The notes beneath the pieces were generated by a model. The model was not told where the DNA came from. It saw only the letters and a list, made by a program, of their open reading frames with translations, and searched no databases. A DNA stretch of 64,000 bases from Paludisphaera borealis (GTDB taxonomy: Bacteria; Planctomycetota; Planctomycetia; Isosphaerales; Isosphaeraceae): assembly GCF_001956985.1 (NCBI RefSeq), contig NZ_CP019082.1, positions 3,224,001-3,288,000 of the forward strand, written 5' to 3'. The position numbers and the translations under genes are program-made. Positions 29,508 through 35,296 of the stretch are shown in pieces (positions within the stretch are counted from its first letter, which is position 1; each line of letters starts with the position of its first letter).

Positions 29508-30809
<1,302 letters not shown>

Positions 30810-30944
30810 CGGAAATCCCATCCTCGAAAGCAAATGAGTGAGCCGAAGAACCGTCGTCGAGCCGCCGCCCCAGGGGCCGCGGAAACAACGACGACCCGGG
30901 CCATCGGCGGGCGGCCCGGGGCGAAATAGTGTAACGGGTTGCGA

Positions 30945-32294
<1,350 letters not shown>

Positions 32295-32354: not shown

Positions 32355-33776
<1,422 letters not shown>

Positions 33777-33800
33777 GTTCAAAGTCTCCTGAAACGATGA

Positions 33801-33881
33801 ACGGGCGCGGTTGCACGTTATTAATCCACCTCAGCGAGCCTGGCAGGAACGCCCGTGCGTGCCGTCGCAGCGCCCCTCGAC
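33801..33881 (-). promoter_or_regulatory. S-adenosylhomocysteine (SAH) riboswitch
   Basis: The ahcY leader on the minus strand reads GUCGAGGGGCGCUGCGACGG, then a variable hairpin, CCAGGCUCG, a short linker, and GCAACCGCGCCC, which matches the SAH riboswitch core in order. P1 forms between GGGCGC (33870-33875) and GCGCCC (33803-33808); proteobacterial examples have GAGCGC/GCGCUC, so the A-U to G-C change is compensatory. The CGAG near the 5' end can pair with CUCG of CCAGGCUCG to make the pseudoknot. It ends ~10 nt before the ahcY ribosome site. In known cases SAH binding turns expression on. Confidence 0.88.
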
Positions 33882-34133
33882 GAAGTGGTGTGACTTGTTG
33901 AATGTAAGCAAGGCTCCGCGGCAGAACCAATCCGGCGGAACTCCTCCACCGGCAGGGCTTTCGCGTGCTGGCCGTACGCGTTCCACACGCGAGCCGCCGA
34001 CAAGCCCCACTCGGCAAGCCGATGGCTGGGCGAACGCCATGGACGTTGGTCCACGACACGCACAGCTCCGTCGGCCCGACCATGTGGCTGAAGTGCACCT
34101 GCCAGCGCGGGACGGGGGCCGGGGATCACGGCT

Positions 34134-34531
34134 TCAGCGTCCGTCCCAGAGCAGGCGAAGGGTTTTGCGCCGCTCCCAGTCCATCCAGTCGAGGGGACCG
34201 GTCGGCTCGGGACTCGCGTCGGTCGAACGGACTAGGGCGGAAACCGTCTGGCCGTAGGCGCGGGCTTGAGTCGACGCGTGGGGCGCGAGGGTCTGCACCA
34301 GCGCCTCGAAGCGCATCCAGTCGTCTTCGGACATCGCCACCCGCAGAGCCTTGCTGATCCACTCGTCGGGCAAGGGGGGGTGCAAGGGACGGAGACCTCG
34401 CTCTTGGTCGGGCCGGCGTCGTCGGCCCATGCGATCTCGTTCCACGACTCAACCTCGTCTCTATCCTCTGGTGACAACCCGCGATCCCAAACCGAGGGAC
34501 GCACCTTAACACACGCGTACGCACGTATCAA
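34134..34531 (-). pseudogene. Small gene of unknown function split by a one-base frameshift at a G/C run
   Basis: Two overlapping minus frames read as one protein if a base is added in the run of seven G (plus strand 34374-34380). The upstream frame (from ~34531, TTG) gives MIRAYACVKVRPSVWDRGLS and ESWNEIAWADDAG; the downstream frame continues LPDEWISKALRVAMSEDDWM, then FEALVQTLAPH and ends TLRLLWDGR. Joined length would be ~132 residues. The continuations past the run look like nonsense in each unshifted frame. It may be a real frameshift, a homopolymer sequencing error, or slippage-controlled. I do not recognise the family. Confidence 0.5.
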
Positions 34532-34723
34532 GAAAAACTATCGGCGTTTTCGGGAGAATCGTTGAGTCCGTCGTTTTCCGCGCTTCCGGCGGACGATCGG
34601 GTTTTACCCCGGAGGCGCCGGGCGAGTAAGATGGCGGTGCCGACATGACAGGCGGTCCGGACGTACCGGAACCCGCCGATGGGTCGGTTCCCCTATTCGA
34701 ATATTCAACGGAGCCTTCCTCTC

Positions 34724-35296
34724 GTGGTCCCCGCCAAGGATTTCAAGCGCCGCATGGTCGTCGAGATCGACGGCGCACCGCACATGATCGAGCATATTCA
34801 GGTTCAAACCCCCTCGGCGCGGGGCGCGGCCACGCTTTACAAAATCAAGGCCCGGAACCTCAAGACCAAGAACCGGGTCGAGAAATCGTACCGCGGGACC
34901 GACTCGCTCAACGAGTCGAGCTTCGAGCGCAAGCCGATCCAGTACCTCTACCGCGACGCCGACGAGCTCCACTTCATGGACTCGGGCGATTTCTCCCAGT
35001 TCACGTTCCGGGCCGACGAGCTGGCCGACCAGATCCCGTACATGTCCGAAAACATGGAAGGGATCGATGCGCTGGTGGTCGACGACGAGGTCATCGCCAT
35101 CGAGCTGCCCGACACCGTCGAGATGACGATCACCGAGACCGCGCCGGGCGTCCGGGGCAACTCCGCCACCGGCCGGACCAAGCCGGCGACCCTCGCCACC
35201 GGCCACGTCATCCAGGTCCCCGAACACCTCGACGAGGGAACCAACGTCAAAGTCGACACCCGCACCGGCGAGTACCTCGGCCGGGTTTCGGGCTGA
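34724..35296 (+). CDS. efpL: Elongation factor P-like protein EfpL (YeiP type)
   Basis: 190 residues from GTG 34724, which has GGAG 10 nt upstream and gives the family's exact usual length; the in-frame ATG at 34679 adds 15 unlike residues. Three EF-P beta-barrel domains. The tip loop reads TPSARGAATLYK with Arg33 where canonical EF-P carries the modified Lys, as in E. coli EfpL. Later blocks LPDTVEMTITETAPG and TGHVIQVPEHLDEG fit domains II and III. EfpL binds ribosomes stalled on proline-containing motifs and promotes peptide bond formation. Confidence 0.94.
   Translation: MVPAKDFKRRMVVEIDGAPHMIEHIQVQTPSARGAATLYKIKARNLKTKNRVEKSYRGTDSLNESSFERKPIQYLYRDADELHFMDSGDFSQFTFRADELADQIPYMSENMEGIDALVVDDEVIAIELPDTVEMTITETAPGVRGNSATGRTKPATLATGHVIQVPEHLDEGTNVKVDTRTGEYLGRVSG

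Follow-up and report, generated by a model that had tools for sequence, protein, structure and literature searches.

A SAH riboswitch upstream of ahcY in a planctomycete, most likely acquired together with its gene from Pseudomonadota

The stretch of 64,000 nucleotides of the Paludisphaera borealis genome that was analysed here (the window) carries, on its minus strand and directly upstream of a gene for S-adenosylhomocysteine (SAH) hydrolase, the enzyme that clears SAH, a toxic product left by methylation, an element that, as judged by its sequence, truly belongs to the SAH riboswitch class. The reading to which we assign a probability of about 0.85 as the whole explanation is that of a true SAH riboswitch, acquired with a long type of ahcY from Pseudomonadota and taking over from a short type of ahcY.

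Results

The window was scanned against all 4227 Rfam families. RF01057 (SAH riboswitch) alone was reported at the aptamer site, with a score of 44.1 bits (cut-off 37, E = 6.9e-5) and a match spanning model positions 1 to 78 of 78 (Table 1). The same scan gave no match to RF01727 (SAM/SAH riboswitch) in the window, and the RF01057 match was the sole one found across the 7.65-Mb genome. These results bore out a sequence-only reading, in which the element had been named as a SAH riboswitch in a planctomycete, placed before ahcY. The three core stretches quoted in that reading were found on the minus strand in the order given, the host is a planctomycete, and the first downstream gene was ahcY (TIGR00936; 617.8 bits, cut-off 497.6). 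The core sequences CAGGCUCG and AACNGCGC were present in the window aptamer, as in RF01057.

The structure was scored in an alignment of 22 Isosphaeraceae copies (21 distinct rows) for 8 pairs in P1, 8 in P2 and 8 in the pseudoknot. These pairs were formed in 94.4% of cells of the distinct rows, whereas slid control structures had only 36 to 47% of cells paired. Covariation was detected in the same alignment: both bases had changed in 6 pairs, compared to a shuffled mean of 1.9. The window copy had one mismatch in P1 and one in the pseudoknot. Two details of the structure differed from those proposed in the sequence-only reading. The CGAG/CUCG pairing, which had been taken for the pseudoknot, was found to be P1, the pseudoknot being GGGCGC/GCGCCC, and a compensatory change from A-U to G-C, which had been placed in P1, does exist but lies in the pseudoknot. 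The changed pair was A-U in 37, G-C in 8 and G-U in 7 of 52 scorable non-planctomycete rows; the compensatory G-C change is ordinary for the SAH riboswitch class and not special to planctomycetes.

Table 1. Features of the riboswitch-ahcY locus in the window
Feature	Coordinates	Strand	Remarks
SAH riboswitch aptamer (RF01057)	33796..33884	-	44.1 bits, cut-off 37
P1, 5' strand	33876..33883	-	partner strand 33831-33838; the window copy has a single U-C mismatch
P1, 3' strand	33831..33838	-	alignment of Isosphaeraceae copies
P2 hairpin	33844..33864	-	alignment of Isosphaeraceae copies
Pseudoknot, 5' strand GGGCGCUG	33868..33875	-	99.4% of cells paired, 21 distinct rows
Pseudoknot, 3' strand CCGCGCCC	33803..33810	-	alignment of Isosphaeraceae copies
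Ribosome-binding site AGGAGA	33785..33790	-	5 bases past the aptamer
Short hairpin (GUUCA...UGAAC) spanning the ribosome-binding site	33777..33802	-	may act as expression platform; no better than chance in Isosphaeraceae
Long-type ahcY (SAH hydrolase)	32355..33776	-	ATG at 33776
Second, short-type ahcY	30945..32282	-	41% identical to long ahcY
DUF1015 open frame	29508..30833	-	frequent neighbour downstream of short ahcY in Isosphaeraceae
Divergent elongation factor P-like gene	34679..35296	+	upstream bound of the locus

The gene order in the window was riboswitch, long ahcY, short ahcY and DUF1015, with 19 bases between the end of the aptamer and the ATG of the long gene and a gap of 72 bases between the two ahcY genes. 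The closest solved chains were 3d64_A for the long-type AHCY and 7o5l_A for the short type, which is the more widespread form of ahcY in Isosphaeraceae and is without a riboswitch. Two overlapping open frames between the riboswitch and the elongation factor P-like gene (34134-34531, minus strand) could be read by eye as a single small gene disrupted by a frameshift. No sigma-70-like promoter was found in a scan of 33700-34700, and the one terminator-like site detected in this region, 47 bases upstream of the aptamer, was within chance.

In the available text of PMC7057144, higher ahcY expression in response to SAH is reported for the SAH riboswitch class. A ribosome-binding site was located 4 to 8 bases past the aptamer in 21 of 22 Isosphaeraceae leaders, a spacing that makes a terminator hardly possible and points to control at translation. 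Folding of the 22 leaders with the aptamer held in its formed state left the accessibility of the ribosome-binding site unchanged (mean of 0.54 free versus 0.52 held). Synonymous-codon shuffles, in which a doubtful start was taken for L010 and L012, gave no sign of selection on the early codons for start-region pairing (mean z of 0.20, with 11 of 22 negative). Whether the start region pairs with the 3' strand of the pseudoknot and its tail was examined in 77 of 89 leaders, those with the core motif and a start found, against shuffles that keep single-base content only. The mean z for 27 Isosphaeraceae leaders was -0.29, with 4% under 0.05, and swapped strands in these leaders also gave -0.29. 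For 50 non-Isosphaeraceae leaders, some of them near-copies, a mean z of -2.26 versus shuffles was obtained, with 64% under 0.05, and the value versus strands swapped between species was -1.03. The pairing partner in several of these 50 leaders contained the ribosome-binding site or the start codon, and such downstream pairing of the pseudoknot 3' strand and tail would compete with the SAH-bound pseudoknot. The Isosphaeraceae counterpart, the GUUCA/UGAAC stem, was short and no better than chance. The window riboswitch would most likely sense S-adenosylhomocysteine, and a build-up of SAH would lead, through translation, to greater production of SAH hydrolase.

The distribution of the element was determined in 45 Isosphaeraceae genomes. 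A SAH riboswitch was present in 22, in every case above the cut-off (39.9 to 56.9 bits) and, in 22 of 22, with long ahcY directly downstream. Long ahcY (at least 90% identity, one a fragment) was detected in exactly these 22 genomes, 7 of which held both ahcY types; short ahcY alone was present in 22 further genomes, and one genome (77% complete) had no ahcY match. The chance of this coincidence of riboswitch and long ahcY is 1/C(44,22) = 4.8e-13 if the genomes are independent, which they are not.

A sample of 392 planctomycete genomes, two of them from Isosphaeraceae, was used for the phylum, and about 11 candidates were scored in each genome. A match was present in six genomes besides that of the window. 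Outside Isosphaeraceae, a credible copy was present in 4 of 390 genomes, all of one family (f36). Weak matches in L027 (G265), which is without the CAGGCUC core, and in L028 (G209), which overlaps an apparent hemC start as read by eye, were judged to be due to chance. Five sites were found in f36, two above the Rfam cut-off and three below. The riboswitch preceded ahcY in three f36 genomes (L025, L026 and L029) and metE in two (L023:1501-1563 and L024:1501-1561), with one genome having both arrangements. The aptamer of L024 scored 34.9 bits, below the Rfam cut-off, and the metE matches were to truncated frames with scores below the curated cut-offs of the models; in L023, a metF-like gene was present on the opposite strand. 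Among Pseudomonadota, a match was found in 85 of 249 sampled genomes, 84 of these above the cut-off.

To represent the nearest loci to the long ahcY, the top 80 out of 595 confirmed loci were examined. Six of these were planctomycete-like, at 90 to 94%, and the other 74, at 82 to 87%, were from Pseudomonadota except for nine from Desulfuromonadales/Geobacteraceae and one titled Mycobacteriaceae. Other planctomycetes among the matches listed had the long type at 60 to 75% and, in one case (G122), at 83%; no riboswitch was found in the fetched locus of the latter. Within the best 80 of 595 loci, a riboswitch preceded ahcY in 64 of the 74 non-planctomycete loci, 42 being called by our own model R1 at E <=0.01 and 22 by Rfam above the cut-off, while the ten loci without one were the nine from Desulfuromonadales/Geobacteraceae and one contig ending at the gene. 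These nine (L127, L130, L150, L151, L156, L160, L162, L165 and L166) had a beta-type ahcY and no RF01057 match. The ahcY of Desulfuromonadales/Geobacteraceae grouped with riboswitch-bearing ones (five loci in a 100-row tree), and apparently either ahcY moved into these bacteria without the riboswitch or the riboswitch was lost. The locus titled Mycobacteriaceae (L159) had a riboswitch-ahcY of proteobacterial type, and its record is likely a mislabelled or mixed assembly. A second SAH riboswitch, before metK, was observed in a Thiothrix MAG (L126:160-242 with L126:243-1440; Rfam, 59.7 bits) and in a Sulfuriferula MAG (L143:1579-1650 with L143:1651-2891; own model only, 33.5 bits), and in both the riboswitch-ahcY lay behind the riboswitch-metK. 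SAH riboswitches do not control metK according to the accessible part of PMC4239095.

The origin of the long AHCY was examined in a tree of 66 hand-chosen rows (46 earlier rows and 20 further Pseudomonadota from 133 genomes with a match), for which riboswitch labels were taken from adjacency and the bootstrap was not fully settled (0.985). Isosphaeraceae formed one clade (100/99), which was nested in a 37-row clade with Pseudomonadota (100/98); further riboswitch-bearing Pseudomonadota branched outside the 37-row clade. Family f36 branched near the base of a 48-row clade holding most riboswitch-bearing rows (86/92). The placement of all planctomycetes on one side was rejected in an AU test (dlnL of 212.6, p-AU of 8e-143), as was that of Isosphaeraceae plus f36, a group picked after seeing the tree (p-AU of 1.9e-5), and the rejection of both groupings suggested two entries into Planctomycetota. 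In a sample without the distant Pseudomonadota (100 of 132 rows, the 32 dropped being mostly near-copies), placing planctomycetes on one side could not be rejected (p of 0.298). Riboswitch-bearing AHCYs were not one clade: L233 (Pseudomonadota G534), with an AHCY 65% identical to that of the window and a riboswitch just upstream, was placed outside the main clade; its long branch, weakly supported at the join (80/11), was located among other planctomycetes. The position of L233 means that riboswitch and ahcY are linked beyond the main clade as well, and hints that the riboswitch is also able to swap its ahcY partner.

The 22 of 22 linkage, the placement of the AHCY among Pseudomonadota and the riboswitch-ahcY arrangement in 64 of 74 relatives indicated that riboswitch and long ahcY were most likely transferred from Pseudomonadota jointly and not separately. 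The recipients would have been an ancestor or members of Isosphaeraceae. It had been proposed from the sequence that a planctomycete copy either extends the class or indicates transfer; the AHCY trees favoured transfer, with the element being common to the 22 of 45 Isosphaeraceae genomes.

Gene order was compared in 20 short-ahcY loci (17 from short-only genomes and 3 from genomes with both types) and in 19 of the 22 long-ahcY loci. DUF1015 was located within ~340 nt after short ahcY in 15 of the 20 short loci. Five of the 19 long loci, including three from the genus of the window, had DUF1015 immediately after long ahcY and no intervening short gene. Two more genomes had long and short ahcY in tandem on contigs ending there, one had the order short-riboswitch-long, and three kept the two genes apart; the fetched stretches of the remaining long loci either contained no DUF1015 or had it in another arrangement. 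Because the window has long-short-DUF1015 and its relatives have short-DUF1015 or long-DUF1015, it represents an apparent intermediate of replacement in place. The simplest reading, with a direction and order that we infer, is that the cassette was inserted at the native locus in some lineages and that the short gene was then lost in sister species. Long ahcY would have displaced the short ahcY of Isosphaeraceae in many genomes, and in the window, where both enzymes stand side by side, this replacement would be unfinished.

Discussion

Several observations could be reconciled with a window aptamer that is a decaying, non-functional copy: its score is the second lowest of the 22 (44.1 bits in a range of 39.9 to 56.9), P1 contains a U-C mismatch, a pseudoknot pair is U-C as opposed to U-G in the 20 other distinct rows, and a second SAH hydrolase is present. 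We nevertheless consider decay improbable. Base 33809 is C in the window and G in the 21 other sequences of alignment A1, but 17 of 54 scorable non-planctomycete rows carry C or U at the equivalent position, and the planctomycete L092 carries C. A first reading of 33809 as a damaged binding-site base was abandoned because relatives elsewhere often have C or U there. The P1 mismatch falls at a position where the standard pair is missing in 7 of 21 distinct rows, that of the window included. Bases that we take to be the equivalents of the ligand contacts (G, C, A and C, mapped through the numbering of the crystal RNA and checked in sequence only) are present and unchanged in the window copy. The contacts to SAH named in the available text of PMC7057144 are G15, C16, A29 and C46. 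The chance that the element belongs instead to another class sensing SAM or SAH, such as RF01727, or is a fortuitous match appears negligible, for although such classes have similar ligands and small pseudoknots, only RF01057 was reported among the 4227 families, conservation and covariation extend over 22 genomes and ahcY is directly downstream in 22 of 22.

A different history, in which riboswitch and long ahcY are an ancestral heritage of planctomycetes and proteobacteria received them from planctomycetes, would fit the presence of riboswitch-ahcY in a second planctomycete family near the base of the 48-row clade, and the one-side test on 100 rows was not significant. This history is unlikely in view of the rejection of planctomycetes on one side once distant Pseudomonadota were added and of the post hoc grouping of Isosphaeraceae with f36. 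Furthermore, at about 11 candidates scored per genome, a credible copy was present in only 4 of 390 planctomycetes outside Isosphaeraceae, compared with a match in 85 of 249 Pseudomonadota. Acquisition from Pseudomonadota is therefore the reading that we retain.

The window element resembles the RF01057 elements of proteobacterial ahcY leaders in its full-length match to the model, its P1, P2, pseudoknot and core and its position upstream of ahcY. It differs in the phylum of its host, in the spacing of 4 to 8 bases from aptamer to ribosome-binding site seen in 21 of 22 Isosphaeraceae leaders, and in what follows, as the window ahcY is succeeded by a second ahcY type and DUF1015 with no metF in that place; metF was found in ahcY operons of most proteobacterial lineages surveyed, according to the accessible part of PMC4239095. 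The SAM/SAH riboswitch RF01727 is similar in sensing SAH (and SAM) and having a pseudoknot (PMC7367207, available text) but is described before metK in Rhodobacterales (PMC4239095 and PMC7367207, in the same portions). The SahR regulator of other proteobacteria follows the same logic of SAH-controlled ahcY, as described in the accessible part of PMC4239095, although it is a DNA-binding protein and not an RNA. No report of a SAH riboswitch in planctomycetes was found in the open-access papers that were searched, and an earlier annotation may exist. The portion of PMC2864571 available to us mentions both the SAH riboswitch and planctomycetes and names the latter for another motif.

These results extend the SAH riboswitch to a phylum other than the Proteobacteria, the group surveyed for the class by PMC4239095 as far as its accessible text goes, and provide a clear case in which a riboswitch most likely moved across phyla with its gene. 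We would put at roughly even odds the broader proposal that riboswitch and enzyme form a self-regulated cassette which travels between phyla, has reached Planctomycetota on two or more occasions and, within Isosphaeraceae, displaces the resident riboswitch-free SAH hydrolase in place, with the window caught midway. On this proposal, two unlike SAH hydrolases share the gene row downstream of one leader that would sense SAH, so that the short enzyme may be controlled by SAH too. What sets the finding apart from the routine is that riboswitch and gene were likely transferred jointly and that stages in the replacement of the enzyme can be seen. With short-only, both-type and long-only genomes in one family, it becomes testable whether built-in regulation aids the replacement of a resident gene by a foreign one.
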